Below are positions 12,951 to 44,125 of a DNA stretch of 44,312 nucleotides, one piece after another. Numbering within the stretch: the stretch's first letter is position 1; each line of letters begins with the position of its first letter. Position numbers and translations under genes: made by a program. The notes under the pieces are model-generated. The model had not been told where the DNA came from, ran no database searches, and saw only the letters and a program-made list of their open reading frames with translations. The stretch is from Akkermansiaceae bacterium (GTDB lineage Bacteria > Verrucomicrobiota > Verrucomicrobiia > Verrucomicrobiales > Akkermansiaceae). The stretch covers positions 1 through 44,312 of the forward strand of contig CAIZNN010000012.1 in assembly GCA_903934285.1 (NCBI GenBank). Reading direction: 5' to 3'.

Positions 12951-13790
12951 ATGCCCCTGAAAAATTTCAATCCCATCACTCCCTCCGCCCGCTACAAGTC
13001 GCATCCCTCATTTGAGGAAGTGACCAAGAGCAAGCCGGAAAAGAGCCTCCTCACCCCGCTCAAGCGCAGTGGGGGCCGCAACAACACCGGTCGCATCACC
13101 TGTCGCCACGTCGGCGGCGGTCACAAGCGCCACTATCGGATCATCGATTTCAAACGGCGCAAGCACGATGTGCCGGCCACCGTGGTGGGCATCGAGTACG
13201 ACCCGAACCGGACCTGCCGCATTGCCTTGCTGCAATACGAAGACGGCCAGAAATCCTATATCCTCGCTCCCGTCGGCCTGGAAGTGGGTGCCACCGTCAT
13301 CGCCGGCGCCAAAGTGGCGCCCAAGACCGGCAATGCGATGCCGCTGAGTTGTGTGCCGCTGGGCACCTCGATTCACAATATCGAATTGCTGCCGGGCAAC
13401 GGCGGCAAGGTGGCGCGAGCCGCCGGCCAATTGGCGGTGTTGTCCAACCGCGATGGCGGCTGGGCCCTGGTCAAAATGCCTTCCGGTGAAATCCGCCGCT
13501 TCCACGAAGCGTGCTTCTGCACCATCGGCCAGGTCGGCAACCGCGACCACATGAACGAAATCTCGGGCAAGGCCGGCCGCACCCGCTGGATGGGCGTGCG
13601 CCCAACCGTGCGCGGCATGACCATGAACCCGGTTGACCACCCCAACGGCGGTGGCGAAGGCAAGTCGAAATCCGGGGGTGGCCGCCAGCATCTGCTCAGC
13701 CCGTGGGGTCACGCCAAAGGCCAGAAGACCCGCCATCACAAGAAGACCACTTCCATCTTCATCGTTGAATCCCGCCACAAGAAGCAATAA
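12951..13790 (+). CDS. rplB: Ribosomal protein L2
   Basis: L2 is required for subunit joining and peptidyl-transferase structure. The 279 residues contain [36 protein letters not shown], the G-rich [18 protein letters not shown], and the C-terminal [19 protein letters not shown] with the universally conserved histidine. Length fits (E. coli 273). The leader AACCGTTCCGCGAGTC has no SD. Confidence 0.98.
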
Positions 13791-13835
13791 TCCGTCTCGC
13801 TCGTCCCCGACCCGCATTCTAACGCACCGATCCCC

Positions 13836-14108
13836 ATGCCCCGCTCCCTCAAGAAAGGCCCCTTCGTTGATCAAAAGCTCCTCGCCAAGATTGACGTCGT
13901 CGCCGAAGCCGGACCCGACCGCAAGCCCATTAAAACCTGGAGCCGCAAGTCGATGATCACCCCGGACTTTGTTAGCCACAACTTCGCCGTCCACAATGGC
14001 AAAACCTTTGTGCCGGTCTATGTCACCGAAAACATGGTCGGCCACAAGCTCGGCGAATTCGCTCCCACCCGGATCTTCCGCAATCACGGCGGCATCGGTA
14101 AGAAGTAA
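13836..14108 (+). CDS. rpsS: Ribosomal protein S19
   Basis: S19 forms a complex with S13 in the 30S head; the S13 gene is not in this window. The 90 residues include [67 protein letters not shown] and the [10 protein letters not shown] end. The following gene, 28 bases on, is not a ribosomal protein. Confidence 0.97.
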
Positions 14109-14136
14109 GCTCCTGACCCTCATTTTCCTCACTCCC

Positions 14137-14853
14137 ATGCGCACTTGGTTCCATCTGCCCACGCTTGCCGCCACCTTCGGGTTGCTGGCCAGTGCGGCGG
14201 TGTGCCCGGCGCAGCAGAGTGAGGATTCCGCTAGATTGCAGGCCACCCTGACCGAACTGCGCGACCAAAACCGCGCCCTCCAGCGCAGCCTCGCCGAAGC
14301 CAACCGCGGCGAAAAGCAGGCCTCCGACCAACTCGCCCAAGTCCGCCTCCACCTCGAAGCCCTCGGCAAGAACCTGCTCGATGGTGGCGATGACCGGCTG
14401 GTGCGGGCGGCGGCCGATCTCGAGGTGTCCAAGCAACGCCTCAGCGAACTGGAAGCCACAGTGATGCGGCTGACCTCGGCGGTCACCGATTACTTGCGCC
14501 AAGCGGTGGTGTCCGACCCCGCCACCCGCCTGCGCGTCGAAACTTCACTACGCGAGCTTGACGCGCTGCTCGGATTGCGCCAGAAACCCCGTGCCGATGT
14601 CTTGGCTGGTTCGTTGCAAAAAGCGCGCATCGTAAGCATCGATCAGGAAAGCGGCATGCTGGTGCTCAACCTCGGTGAAAGCCAGGGCGCCAAAATCGGC
14701 ATGTCCTTCCGCCTCTTCCGGGGCCAACAGCCCTACGGCAAAGCCATGCTCGCCGACGTCCGCACAGCCGTCAGCGGCGCCTTTGCCGACCACTTAGATA
14801 TCTCCGCCGATTCTCCCCGCCCCGGCGACCTCGCCGTTCTCGAAACCGAATAA
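14137..14853 (+). CDS. Secreted or periplasmic coiled-coil protein of unknown function, inserted in the S10 operon
   Basis: The gene lies exactly between rpsS and rplV, where bacteria normally have nothing. The ATG at 14137 gives 238 residues beginning with a signal peptide (MRTWFHLPTLAATFGLLASAAVCPAQQ, cut near CPA/QQ). A long coiled coil follows (about 30-125: TLTELRDQNRALQRSLAE and later ASKQRLSELEATVMRL-like heptads). The C-terminal domain (about 155-238) reads KARIVSIDQESGMLVLNLGESQGAKIGMSFRLFRG and then GDLAVLE. That last domain resembles the small beta-barrels of MreC- or FlgT-like envelope proteins, where 'NLG...GVKVGM' strings are common, but I cannot name the family. The frame is open back to 13969 only as a shadow of rpsS. 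Same strand, tight spacing and no internal terminator suggest co-transcription with the r-proteins. Confidence 0.85.
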   Translation: MRTWFHLPTLAATFGLLASAAVCPAQQSEDSARLQATLTELRDQNRALQRSLAEANRGEKQASDQLAQVRLHLEALGKNLLDGGDDRLVRAAADLEVSKQRLSELEATVMRLTSAVTDYLRQAVVSDPATRLRVETSLRELDALLGLRQKPRADVLAGSLQKARIVSIDQESGMLVLNLGESQGAKIGMSFRLFRGQQPYGKAMLADVRTAVSGAFADHLDISADSPRPGDLAVLETE

Positions 14854-14891
14854 GCCGCCCCGCCACCCCAACCCCTCACGTCAGCCGACCC

Positions 14892-15317
14892 ATGGAAGTC
14901 AAAAGCAGCACCAAATTCGTCCGTCTCTCGCCGCAAAAAGCGCGGGATGTCGCCCGGGAAATCCAAGGCCTAGCGGTCTCGAGCGCCCTGGACATTCTCA
15001 ATTACACCCCGAAGAAGGCGGCCACCCTCATCGGCAAGACGCTCAAAACGGCCATCGCCGATGCGGAAAACAACTATTCGCTCGACACCAACACCCTCGT
15101 CATCAAAGAGGCGGTCATCGGCGCGGGTCCCACGCTGCGCCGCTTCAGCCCCAGGGCGAAGGGCTCCGCCGGTCCCTTGCTCAAGCGCACCAGCCACATT
15201 TACATCACTCTCGTCGGCTCCGCCCCCGAGAAAAAGAAGCCGACCGTTCCGAAGGTCGCCAAGAAAAAGTCTCCCGATGCCCCGGTTGCCGCGGCAAGCG
15301 AAGAACAACCCGCCTGA
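14892..15317 (+). CDS. rplV: Ribosomal protein L22 with C-terminal extension
   Basis: L22 lines the exit tunnel with L4. The conserved 110-residue core runs from KFVRLSPQKARDVAREIQGL through SALDILNYTPKKAATLIGKTLKTAIADAENN to the tunnel hairpin ending RFSPRAKGSAGPLLKRTSHIYITL. The total of 141 residues includes an added ~30-residue tail rich in K, P and A (EKKKPTVPKVAKKKSPDAPVA). No SD is present. Confidence 0.97.
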   Translation: MEVKSSTKFVRLSPQKARDVAREIQGLAVSSALDILNYTPKKAATLIGKTLKTAIADAENNYSLDTNTLVIKEAVIGAGPTLRRFSPRAKGSAGPLLKRTSHIYITLVGSAPEKKKPTVPKVAKKKSPDAPVAAASEEQPA

Positions 15318-15350
15318 ATCCCCCCCCATTAATCTCATCCCTCACCGACC

Positions 15351-16076
15351 ATGGGCCAGAAAGTAAATCCGATCGCATTCCGCCTCGCCGTCAACAAGGA
15401 CTGGCGCTCCAAGTGGTATGCCTGCGGCAAGGACTACACCGACAAGCTCCACGAGGACTTGTCCGTGCGGGCCTACCTCCGCAACAAACTGCAGAACGCC
15501 GGCCTGGCCAAGGTCGTCATTGAGCGCGCTTGGAACAGCGTCCGCGTTACCCTCCACACCTCCCGCCCCGGCCTCATCATCGGCCGCCAGGGTAAGGAAA
15601 TCGAGGTCATGACCAAGGACATCGCCGAGCTTTGCAAAGGCGCCCAAGTCAAACTCGACATCTTGGAAATCCGCAAGCCTGAGCTCGACGCCCAACTCGT
15701 CGCCGAGCAGGTCGCGGTCCAGCTCGAGCGGCGCATCAGTTTCCGCCGCGCCATGAAGCGCGCCATTCAGACCGCCATGGAATTCGGGGCCGAAGGGATT
15801 CGGCTGCGGGTGGCCGGCCGCCTCGGTGGCGCCGACATTGCCCGTTCCGAGTCGTATCGGGAAGGCAAGGTGCCTCTGCAAACCTTGCGCGTCCCGTTGG
15901 AATACGGCTTCGCTGAAGCCCGCACCCTCTACGGCATCATCGGCGTCAAGTGCTGGGTCAACAAAAAGGAAGAAGATCCCAAACTTGCCCAACAAGGCCG
16001 CGGCGACCGCGGCGATCGGGGTGACCGCGGCGATCGCGGTGACCGCAACGGCCGCCGCCCCCCGCCCCGCAATTGA
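15351..16076 (+). CDS. rpsC: Ribosomal protein S3 with RGD-repeat tail
   Basis: S3 lies at the mRNA entry site. The 241 residues begin MGQKVNPIAFRL. The KH domain is evident in SRPGLIIGRQGKEIEVM, and the C-domain in AGRLGGADIARSESYREGKVPLQTLR and YGIIGVKCWVNKKEED. The end is unusual: five consecutive RGD/GDR triplets followed by NGRRPPPRN, encoded by near-perfect 9-base repeats at about 16002-16046. No SD is present. Confidence 0.97.
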   Translation: MGQKVNPIAFRLAVNKDWRSKWYACGKDYTDKLHEDLSVRAYLRNKLQNAGLAKVVIERAWNSVRVTLHTSRPGLIIGRQGKEIEVMTKDIAELCKGAQVKLDILEIRKPELDAQLVAEQVAVQLERRISFRRAMKRAIQTAMEFGAEGIRLRVAGRLGGADIARSESYREGKVPLQTLRVPLEYGFAEARTLYGIIGVKCWVNKKEEDPKLAQQGRGDRGDRGDRGDRGDRNGRRPPPRN

Positions 16077-40957: not shown

Positions 40958-43900
40958 ATGAACACAAAAAACCAGTTGTCGGGCCGCAGCGGGCATTCCC
41001 TAACGGCGTTCACAGTCGGCGCCATGATCCTGGCGGCCGCCGTGATGCCGGTGTCGGCCGTCTCCCCCTCGATTTCCCCGTGGGAAACGATATTGTCGGT
41101 GGATTCCACCGGTGCTGCCGAGGAAGATCATTTTCCCGAGGCCATGGTTTCCGGCCAAACCATCCACACGGTGTGGACCGCTAGCATTGGCTTCGATCTG
41201 CACCACCTGTGCTACCGCCGTTCGCTCGATGGCGGGGCAACCTGGCAGCAGCGGGTGATTCTGCTCGACTACGACTACGACAATTGGCCGAACATGATGA
41301 CGGGTGAGACCACGCGGCTCGCGGTGGACGGCGACAACGTGCACGTGATCCAACTGCGCTCTGTCAGCGGCTGGCACTATGAGATTGATTATTTCCGTTC
41401 CACCGATGGCGGCGCGACCTTCGAGCCGAGGCGGACGATTGCCTCCTCGGAACAGTACTGGATTTTTGGGGGCGCGCGCATCACCGCGGGAGGCGGCAAA
41501 GTGGCTGTTGCCTTCAGCTTGAGGCCCAATTGGTATTCCGATCCGAGCGGTCACCTGCTGCTGTCCGGCGACAACGGCGCCACCTTCACTCACCAAACCA
41601 TACTTGGCAACAGCTATGCCCCCTATGATTGGAACAGTGGCTCATTTGACTGCATCGACATCAAGCGCACCGCGGACAAGATCGTTTCAATCTGGCGCAC
41701 CAATGGCTCGCCGCGTTTCATTGCTGTGACATCCACCGACGGCGGCCTTAGTTTCCACACCCCCGGCCTTTCCTCTCAAGTTAGCGAAGCTTGGAGCGTC
41801 AATTCAGACGCCATGCGGCCGCAACTCTGCGCGCTGACCGGCGAGACCATGCATGCGGCCTGGCTCCAGCGCAACGCGAGTGGCCGCATCGCGTTCTTCT
41901 ATGCCCGCTCGCTCGACGGGGGCCTGACCTTTGAAACCGAGCGCGATTTGTCGGAAGGCACCATCGGCAGCGAGGAAATCCGCGGCGGCCGCATGCTCAT
42001 GGTGGCCCAGGGCACCCATGTCTATCTGTGTTATGTGGCCAACGCCAGCGGCGGCGTCTGGCTGCGCTCGTCTAACGACTCCGGGGCCACCTTCGGCGCG
42101 GCGCGGCCCTTGCATATTGCCGCCAGCAATATGTTAGGCAACGGCGAGTTTCCGAGTCTGACCATCGACCCGGCGGATGCCAGCGGTGCCAGCGCGTGGT
42201 TTGCCTTTGCGGTGCCCTCGGGCTACGGCGGGTGCTCGGCCAGCGCGATTGGCCGCACCACCGATGGCGGTGCCACTTTCGCGCCCTTGGTGATGCCCGC
42301 CCATCCGTGGGCCTGGGGCAATGGGCATCCCCGCAGTTTCCAACTGTTGCCGGTTGGCAGCTCGGGCGGCACGCATTGGACGATGCTTTATGTCGGTTCC
42401 CGGCCAGGGTATGACGGCGACTTGTTCGCCCGCAGCTTCGTCCCGCAACCCGGCCCAAGCGCCACCAATCAGGTGCTCCATTGCGCGCCGGACCCGTCCC
42501 TGACCCGCTATGACATGGTTGAAGTCCCGGCAGTCGCGTCGCTCCAACTTTCTAACACCCTCAGCGCGGAATTGTGGGTCAAGCTGGCTCCCGGCACCGC
42601 TGCGATGTCACTGCTCGAGTGGGGCAACGGCGACAGCGCGCTGGCGTTCCGCTGCTATCCCAGCGGCGCCAACCGCTGTGCCAACGCCAGACTCCGCACC
42701 ACCGCCGGCAACTATTCGATCGGTGCCGGCAGCGTGATCGGCGACGGCCGTTGGCACCATCTGGCCTTGACCTACGACGCCGAGGCCGGCCCGCTCAACC
42801 TGCGCTTCTACATCGACGGTCACCTGGACCATTCCCTAACAGTCACCGGGGCTTTCGTGCCGGTCCCCGAACCGCTGATGGTCGGCGGCATCCCGGTCGC
42901 CGGTCTTAGTCCCCTCACCGGCGATGTCGACAACCTGCGGCTTTGGAACCGCGCCCTCAGCGAGGATGAAATCCGCGCCTCGGCGCGGCAGGCCGGCCTA
43001 ACAGGCAGTGAGACCGGCCTGGCCGCCGCCTTTTCCTTTGACGGCACGGTCAAGGACCTCAGCGGCCACGGTGCGGACGGCTTGCTGCAGTTTGGCGCGA
43101 CCTATCAGGACGATGGCAGCGTGCCCGGCAAGTTGCTGCGCGAGTGGGCCGATGACTTCGCCGGCAACACGCTGCGCCCCGGGTTTTGGCACACCACTGC
43201 CGCCAGTTCCTACACCGTGGACACCAGCCATGGGGATGTGCGGGTGTCCAAGCCCCTCGGCGTCGCGGGTAGCGACGCGTTCACCATGGACTCGGTGTGG
43301 CAGGCCGTCGCCGACTTCGATGTGTCATTCGACTTCCGCGATGCCGCGCTGGCCCGCAGCGGGAATTGGGGCAATCACCTTGGCATCACCTGCCTCATTG
43401 ACGGCACCTCCTACTATTTCCTTCGTAGCGACGAGAATCAGTTAGGCCAGAACATCCGCTTCGGCATCGAACCGGGTTGGTGGACGGAGGGTTTGCTCAG
43501 CACCAGCACTGCTGCGGGCAACCTGCGCCTGATCCGCCGCGGTGCGCAGTTGACCACCTTCATTGACGGCGAGATCCTCTCCCAGCGCGCCTGCCTCACC
43601 GGTCCGATGACCTGCAAGATCAACCTCTTCAACAACGCCACGCCCGACGCCATCGCCGCCACCTTCGACAACTTCAAAATCTCCGCCACCCGCCTGGAAC
43701 CACGCTGGACCTGCTGGGATTCCTTTGCCACCTATGTCGCCGCCAGAGGGCTCGAAAACGCCGCCGCCGACCCGCGCGCCGATCCCGATGGCGACGGCGC
43801 GGCAAATTTGTTGGAGTATGCCGCCGGCAGCGACCCGGCCGCCGCCGCCTCCGCTCCGCCCGCCCTGGTCATCGGCACCGAGGACACGGGACCGGCCGGG

Positions 43901-44125
43901 AAGTTTCTAACAATCACCGCGCGTCTGGCCAAACCCGCCCCCGCCGACCTCGAGATGCGGGCGGAGTTCTCCATGGATCTGACGCCGGGCAGCTGGGACA
44001 GTTGGGACATCCCCGGCAGTGACACCGACCGGGGCGACCACATCGAGCGCACGTTCCGCGCGCCATTGCTGATAGGATCCCCGCCAAGCGGGTTCATGCG
44101 GGTGAATGTAACGCAACAACCATAG
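40958..44125 (+). CDS. Large secreted protein with Asp-box repeats and two lectin-like domains
   Basis: The 1055-residue product starts with a signal peptide (hydrophobic AFTVGAMILAAAVMPVSA, cut near residue 34). Residues 40-490 form a sialidase-like propeller carrying seven Asp-boxes of the S.DGG.(T/S)(W/F) type, at about 89, 148, 203, 259, 318, 372 and 434. The arginine-containing FRIP motif and a clear catalytic set of sialidases are not visible, so a binding or structural role is as likely as hydrolysis. A LamG/concanavalin-like domain follows (about 515-690: SAELWVKL, RWHHLALTYD, FYIDG.LD, VDNLRLWNRALSEDEI). A second such domain runs from about 735 to 905. The C-terminus holds DPDGDGAANLLEYAAGSDP (about 944-962), a calcium-binding-like segment common at the end of Verrucomicrobiota exported proteins. 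No neighbouring gene suggests a substrate. Confidence 0.85.
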   Translation: MNTKNQLSGRSGHSLTAFTVGAMILAAAVMPVSAVSPSISPWETILSVDSTGAAEEDHFPEAMVSGQTIHTVWTASIGFDLHHLCYRRSLDGGATWQQRVILLDYDYDNWPNMMTGETTRLAVDGDNVHVIQLRSVSGWHYEIDYFRSTDGGATFEPRRTIASSEQYWIFGGARITAGGGKVAVAFSLRPNWYSDPSGHLLLSGDNGATFTHQTILGNSYAPYDWNSGSFDCIDIKRTADKIVSIWRTNGSPRFIAVTSTDGGLSFHTPGLSSQVSEAWSVNSDAMRPQLCALTGETMHAAWLQRNASGRIAFFYARSLDGGLTFETERDLSEGTIGSEEIRGGRMLMVAQGTHVYLCYVANASGGVWLRSSNDSGATFGAARPLHIAASNMLGNGEFPSLTIDPADASGASAWFAFAVPSGYGGCSASAIGRTTDGGATFAPLVMPAHPWAWGNGHPRSFQLLPVGSSGGTHWTMLYVGSRPGYDGDLFARSFVPQPGPSATNQVLHCAPDPSLTRYDMVEVPAVASLQLSNTLSAELWVKLAPGTAAMSLLEWGNGDSALAFRCYPSGANRCANARLRTTAGNYSIGAGSVIGDGRWHHLALTYDAEAGPLNLRFYIDGHLDHSLTVTGAFVPVPEPLMVGGIPVAGLSPLTGDVDNLRLWNRALSEDEIRASARQAGLTGSETGLAAAFSFDGTVKDLSGHGADGLLQFGATYQDDGSVPGKLLREWADDFAGNTLRPGFWHTTAASSYTVDTSHGDVRVSKPLGVAGSDAFTMDSVWQAVADFDVSFDFRDAALARSGNWGNHLGITCLIDGTSYYFLRSDENQLGQNIRFGIEPGWWTEGLLSTSTAAGNLRLIRRGAQLTTFIDGEILSQRACLTGPMTCKINLFNNATPDAIAATFDNFKISATRLEPRWTCWDSFATYVAARGLENAAADPRADPDGDGAANLLEYAAGSDPAAAASAPPALVIGTEDTGPAGKFLTITARLAKPAPADLEMRAEFSMDLTPGSWDSWDIPGSDTDRGDHIERTFRAPLLIGSPPSGFMRVNVTQQP

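Follow-up and report, generated by a model that had tools for sequence, protein, structure and literature searches.

A conserved gene for a predicted exported helix-and-barrel protein between rpsS and rplV in the S10 operon of Verrucomicrobiota

Few gene orders in bacteria are as well conserved as that of S10, and the S10, spc and alpha operons carry the non-ribosomal genes secY, adk, map, infA and rpoA, which serve secretion, nucleotide supply, translation and transcription. Among the envelope proteins to which the product described here can be compared, MreC consists of an N-terminal hydrophobic segment, a coiled coil and a periplasmic beta domain, and FlgT is exported, as our protein is predicted to be; TsaP (PDB entry 3jc8) is a secretin-ring protein with a LysM and a FlgT_C-like part. 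PMC2837039 describes clear conservation of the alpha, spc and S10 region across most of 113 organisms. Our literature searches, with most subscription papers outside their coverage, returned no description of a gene of the present type, and it is not mentioned in the accessible portions of PMC3444138, PMC2474590, PMC2837039, PMC3353972, PMC4960237 and PMC13335675. In the available text of PMC13335675, Amuc_0296-0297, 0301 and 0304 are among the ribosomal genes that rise together. The CT421.2 family is named as a PVC signature protein in PMC3444138.

We analyzed a 44,312-bp stretch of DNA from an Akkermansiaceae bacterium (contig CAIZNN010000012.1; hereafter the window), in which the gene for a protein that we call P0001 is surrounded by ribosomal protein genes (Table 1). 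A sequence-only reading of the window had described a 238-residue ORF between rpsS and rplV, on their strand and at distances of 28 and 38 bp, which is exactly what we found. That reading took the gene to be co-transcribed with its neighbors and held that a separate promoter or terminator around it would speak against this. Between 13700 and 15500 we detected no sigma-70-type promoter, the scan being for this type alone, and no terminator-like site on the same strand, the sole one lying on the opposite strand. Elsewhere in the window, rpsC (S3; 15351-16076) has a run of RGD repeats at its C-terminal end, and the 1055-residue protein encoded at 40958-44122, which appears exported by eye, combines BNR repeats with a LamG-type lectin domain. 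The only feature that Rfam and tRNA scans identified in the window is a 5S rRNA at the contig start (1-114, its 5' end cut by the window edge).

Table 1. Features of the P0001 locus, in window coordinates
Feature	Position	Strand	Basis
Gene for predicted exported helix-plus-barrel protein (P0001, 238 aa, ATG start)	14137..14853	+	ORF and orthologs at the same place
rpsS (S19), upstream neighbor	13836..14108	+	sequence recognition
rplV (L22), downstream neighbor	14892..15317	+	sequence recognition
S10-spc ribosomal protein cluster, rpsJ to rplO, surrounding the P0001 gene	10942..21212	+	names from sequence, not database
rpsS-to-gene gap, 28 bp	14109..14136	+	
Gene-to-rplV gap, 38 bp	14854..14891	+	
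Predicted export signal, residues 1-25	14137..14211	+	102 orthologs; low-confidence model helix 8-19
Long helix, probable coiled coil, residues 28-144	14218..14568	+	model and heptad test on alignment A3
C-terminal beta barrel, FlgT_C-like fold, residues 160-238	14614..14850	+	model, fold search, weak PF16538

We searched for P0001 within the order and found a match in 56 of 59 genomes, the source genome included, and in 42/42 of those of good quality; all genome counts in this work refer to Verrucomicrobiota. The three genomes without a match (G002, G020 and G027) are 84, 59 and 81% complete. In 55 of the 56 matching genomes, again counting the source genome, the ORF was flanked by rpsS and rplV, while in the 56th (L046) the contig starts ahead of the gene and rplV alone is visible. 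The sequence-only reading had proposed a search of related genomes for orthologs at this locus. We scanned named GTDB genomes and ranked the loci by similarity of the protein only, which kept position out of the selection; among the best 80 of 97 relatives, all 80 loci have rpsS, the gene and rplV in this order. These include Haloferula rosea (L157), Luteolibacter pohnpeiensis (L137) and strain CSUN-56 (L166) of the intensively studied gut bacterium Akkermansia muciniphila. In the same 80 loci the gap between rpsS and the gene measured 18-46 bp in 69 and 64-120 bp in the other 11, and that between the gene and rplV 10-56 bp. The rpsS-gene gap is AT-rich and ~100-120 bp long in a subgroup of the window's genus (L123, L130, L133, L135, L138, L139 and L141). 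It contains a long imperfect hairpin in L123 (2881-3000, z -4.0) and L141 (z -3.0) and a weaker one in L130 (z -1.4), with 18-nt inverted arms in L123 and L130 and none at the same setting in L141; it looks like a small palindromic insertion. The source genome also gave a second match (G000:C158, E 1.2e-5), and an 814-residue open frame with an E of 2.7e-4 was set aside as a helicase by eye.

The class was analyzed by searching 188 genomes for rpsS, rplV and the family profile A1; the resulting table holds 127 of them, the others having been dropped since one gene was not found, lay outside the matches listed or was on another contig. Wherever rpsS and rplV were more than 400 bp apart, a homolog lay between them (98/98 genomes, 7 of which are rows of profile A1). 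At distances of 150-400 bp it was found in 2/4 genomes and at up to 150 bp (26-131 bp as observed) in 0/25. At least one genome of 29 of the 36 class families had a homolog and 7 families had none in the table, where absences rest on at most 13 candidates per genome (17 for the phylum) and some may be misses. For example, family f44 was tabulated as lacking the homolog, but one of its genomes (G213) has a 113-aa ORF of a short form that the profile missed, and another (G170) has a profile match between rpsS and rplV. Such short forms, consisting of signal and barrel with no helix, occur in families f13, f17, f39 and f47, where the ORFs were 111-124 aa in the six loci read and 74 aa in G192. 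Five of them aligned with the barrel region of the long forms by hhalign at 98.2% (E 4.7e-14). Since several families keep the signal and barrel alone, the barrel appears to be the core of the protein. One reduced genome of 0.9 Mb (G084, locus L180) has a 337-bp rpsS-rplV gap with no ATG-started ORF above 70 aa, possibly a decayed copy of the gene.

Outside the class we tabulated 96 genomes of the phylum, in 6 of which rpsS, rplV or both were not found. When rpsS and rplV were contiguous, the homolog was present in all 15 genomes with a gap above 400 bp and in none of the 27 with gaps up to 240 bp. Given these 27 genomes and the 7/36 class families without it, the gene is not essential to the phylum. 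In the remaining 48 genomes the two ribosomal genes were apart, on different contigs in 43, where assembly breaks and true splits are indistinguishable case by case, and on one contig in five (G242, G269, G293, G316 and G319; loci L182 and L193-L201). The latter five carry both halves on one contig and thus indicate that true splits of the S10 operon exist. A second profile, A4, was built from seven split-lineage loci and proved homologous to A1 (hhalign 98.7%, E 1.8e-16). With both profiles, 31 of the 48 genomes (7 of the 31 being A4 rows) had the gene ahead of rplV at a distance of at most 161 bp and 7 had it elsewhere in the genome, while no copy was found in 10. Where the operon is split, the gene therefore mostly travels with rplV. 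In G242, G293, G316 and G319 the first half stops at rpsS, followed by a listed ORF on the opposite strand, and the second half opens with the P0001-type gene, then rplV, rpsC and rplP. The gene of G319 is short, with 90 aa from the first ATG within a 148-aa open frame, and in G269 the operon is split on one contig and the gene was not found. Because four one-contig splits end at rpsS and resume at the gene, we consider the rpsS-gene joint to be a break point of S10.

The homolog lay away from rplV in seven genomes, all of genus g131, and we read six of these loci. In three of them, L213, L216 and L218, an AcrB-type gene of the same orientation stands immediately ahead of the displaced copy; it was assigned by Pfam (ACR_tran) in L213 and L218 and by eye in L216. 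Pfam further identified a HlyD-type adaptor and a MarR regulator in L213, and by eye L218 has the same order. After an AcrB-type transporter gene, an outer-membrane channel gene is expected. In L214 and L215 the copy is near an FtsH gene (Pfam in L214) and a gene for an FHA protein (Pfam in L215), and in L217 no clear ORF for it was found in the ORF list. The displaced copies favor an envelope role and suggest that the protein is retained for its own sake.

To describe selection on the gene, we calculated dN/dS against seven close relatives and obtained 0.164-0.264. In 11 of 12 further pairs the ratio was 0.065-0.28, so 18 of the 19 pairs fell in that range, and the nineteenth (L171 against L172) had zero non-synonymous changes; the sequence-only reading had named a ratio near 1 as evidence against its proposal. 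These ratios and the matches in 56/59 genomes rule out a chance or decayed ORF. Divergence of the protein tracked that of rplB, rpsC and rpsS combined (r=0.888, Mantel p=0.001, 29 loci), and the same comparison for rplV itself gave 0.821. Horizontal spread within the order is not favored, as the divergence follows that of the ribosomal proteins. The gene appears to have been inherited vertically as a long-standing part of the S10 operon of Verrucomicrobiota, and its place there looks very old.

The sequence-only reading had predicted a signal peptide, a long coiled coil and a small C-terminal beta domain. The hydrophobic N-terminus was borne out in 102 orthologs, where the most hydrophobic 12-residue stretch of residues 1-40 had a mean score of 2.17 and a lowest of 1.49, against a mean of 1.23 and a highest of 1.93 for the rest of the protein. 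An AxA-like site followed the stretch in 89 of the 102 (a loose pattern with no chance control), and cleavage of P0001 near ...CPA/Q is predicted from an AxA pattern. A lipobox pattern occurred in 1/102 orthologs, which rules out an outer-membrane lipoprotein, and some lineages outside the class have, as judged by eye, a membrane anchor instead of an export signal. The coiled coil fared less evenly. Heptad tests on the single sequence were not significant (p 0.29 and 0.32), whereas the alignment-averaged test (A3, residues 28-144) gave p = 0.0012 at a period of 3.55, and AlphaFold modeled one long helix at 29-126, continued at 128-144. The beta domain was present in the model, with strands from 162 to 235. 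The models of P0001 and of the A. muciniphila protein had mean pLDDT values of 79.2 and 78.8 and pTM values of 0.37 and 0.38, and in both the helix reached ~144 and the barrel began at ~160. Since the pTM is low, the placing of helix and barrel relative to each other is not fixed by the models.

We compared the modeled barrel with known structures and found the closest agreement with the LPHT ring chain 8z5n (VIA-align Z 11.7, rmsd 1.9, 74 residues) and FlgT 3w1e (Z 10.9, rmsd 1.9, 75 residues); we infer that chain 0 of 8z5n is FlgT. The A. muciniphila barrel gave Z of 11.1 and 10.5, respectively. F1-ATPase barrels reached Z 10.1 with the window protein, 1.6 under 8z5n and tied with 3w1e to within 1, and with the Akkermansia protein stood 1.0 under 8z5n and 0.4 under 3w1e. 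Because these barrels score nearly alike, the fold names no function. The sequence-only reading had pointed to MreC- or FlgT-type barrels, and the fold search placed the barrel nearer FlgT than MreC, the Foldseek match to MreC 7eft having an E of 7.4e-3. PF16538 (FlgT_C) was absent from the 9 Pfam matches of P0001 and matched 9 of 39 family members weakly (E up to 1, best 0.0089). NCBIfam MreC models matched 3/39 members (best E 0.0012) and a PDB profile search gave MreC an E of 0.023. A profile search linked the barrel weakly to TsaP (3jc8; E 0.01); unlike TsaP, P0001 had no LysM among its Pfam matches. PF04085 (MreC) did not match P0001 and its own genome encodes a separate MreC (G000:C230), so we ruled out that P0001 is MreC or a stand-in for it. 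A search of the 188 class genomes found MreC in 162. Of the 26 others, 20 are listed, and these are all 20 genomes in our class sample of g18, which we take to be Akkermansia (including G060, G077 and G086); all 20 keep the P0001-type gene.

Other database matches were also limited. In Pfam and NCBIfam nothing for P0001 was over the curated cut-off (best DUF3584, E 0.0017), and PDB sequence searches returned nothing better than E 0.005. Among the first 25 families listed for the 39 members, most were coiled-coil families and the lowest E was 8.7e-7, for Phage_scaffold with 14 members matching. The short forms had one match, to FeoA (E 0.0031), and the split-lineage forms matched coiled-coil families with E down to 0.00027. 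Tandem gene pairs far from ribosomal genes were found at L054:4415-6432, L057:5986-7954 and L058:5989-7760, where P0001 matched the C-terminal domain of one gene product of each pair (E 2.1e-5 to 8e-4) and A1 also matched that of L057. By eye these proteins have an N-terminal helix and a C-terminal domain, a layout like that of P0001; unlike P0001 they are larger, appear membrane-anchored, and are encoded elsewhere and in pairs. The neighbors of the related genes elsewhere gave no clue to function.

The product of the gene is most likely a periplasmic envelope protein made from the ribosomal transcript. The fuller reading that we prefer, with slightly less than even confidence, is that an ancient S10-operon gene encodes an exported stalk with a FlgT-type barrel. 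The gene would be co-transcribed with rplV, rpsC and rplP, and the protein would be made in proportion to ribosome output; its helical stalk may oligomerise, its barrel may bind or ring an envelope structure, and P0001 would then be a structural envelope adaptor required in step with growth. We regard as speculative and rather unlikely the proposal that in Verrucomicrobiota an envelope scaffold protein is under ribosomal-operon control such that pulses of ribosome synthesis yield a fixed share of one envelope part, an arrangement older than the S10 split with the gene as its hinge. The codon adaptation of the gene was 0.611, like that of ordinary window genes (0.616 ± 0.068 for 16 others), and 19 ribosomal and EF-G genes of the window gave 0.676 ± 0.056, so high expression is unsupported by codon use. 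Since the gene heads the rplV operon in split lineages, a promoter of its own would be needed there and is possible in others. The sequence-only reading thus stood as to the conserved locus, the spacing, the export signal and the FlgT-type barrel, while its simple view of ribosomal control is weakened by the ordinary codon use and the position in split lineages.

The same two observations can be read in favor of the main rival, namely that the place is kept in cis, the gene marking an operon joint with an internal promoter or its removal harming ribosomal expression, and that the envelope job needs no link to ribosomes. Outside the class, S10 is broken between rpsS and rplV in many genomes, mostly with the gene at the head of the part that contains rplV, and genus g131 retains the gene at another place. 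We consider this explanation a serious possibility that nevertheless falls well short of probable. The spacing is tight on both sides, the stretch from 13700 to 15500 has no sigma-70-type promoter, selection acts on the protein, and the 25 class genomes with rpsS and rplV 26-131 bp apart and the gene absent indicate that the joint can exist without it. It is decidedly unlikely, in our estimate, that P0001 is part of one envelope machine, such as a ring around a secretin or efflux channel in the manner of FlgT or TsaP, and is placed in the operon by accident. The barrel matches to the LPHT ring chain and FlgT, the weak TsaP profile match (E 0.01) and the copies that follow an AcrB-type gene in L213, L216 (by eye) and L218 are consistent with such a role; against it, P0001 has no Pfam FlgT_C match, a helix replaces the N-terminal and middle domains of FlgT, and F1-ATPase barrels score nearly as high. 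Gene order, and nothing else, would suggest a ribosome-associated factor that stays in the cytoplasm and whose N-terminus does not serve in export. This is highly improbable, given N-terminal hydrophobicity scores of 1.49 or more in 102/102 orthologs with an AxA-like site in 89, short forms that by eye keep a signal-like start without the helix, and no ribosome factor among the Pfam and NCBIfam matches (for the alignment, among the first 25 families listed).

The gene is genuine and has apparently belonged to its ribosomal operon since ancient times; its product is predicted to be exported, and the gene is undescribed within the literature searched. Because the S10 order is so conserved, the retention within it of a non-ribosomal gene across many families of one phylum calls for an explanation. 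A product predicted to be exported is a concrete candidate for a means of matching envelope growth to ribosome growth and, if the speculative scaffold proposal above were true, surface growth would have a built-in coupling to biosynthetic capacity. The gene also marks the S10 break point in several families of the phylum. In the layout of its parts P0001 resembles MreC, although its gene lies between rpsS and rplV and not in an mreB-mreC-mreD context. It shares with FlgT the fold of the C-terminal barrel, a fold that is not exclusive to the two as the F1-ATPase barrels reach Z 10.1. On the other hand, the N-terminal and middle domains of FlgT are missing from P0001, residues 1-145 of which form the signal and long helix (by the model, with no Pfam match), and while FlgT is a flagellar H-ring protein, the P0001 gene is in the S10 operon with no flagellar context at the locus. 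Like secY, adk, map, infA and rpoA, it is a non-ribosomal gene in a ribosomal operon; unlike them, it lies inside the S10 part and its product is itself predicted to be exported.
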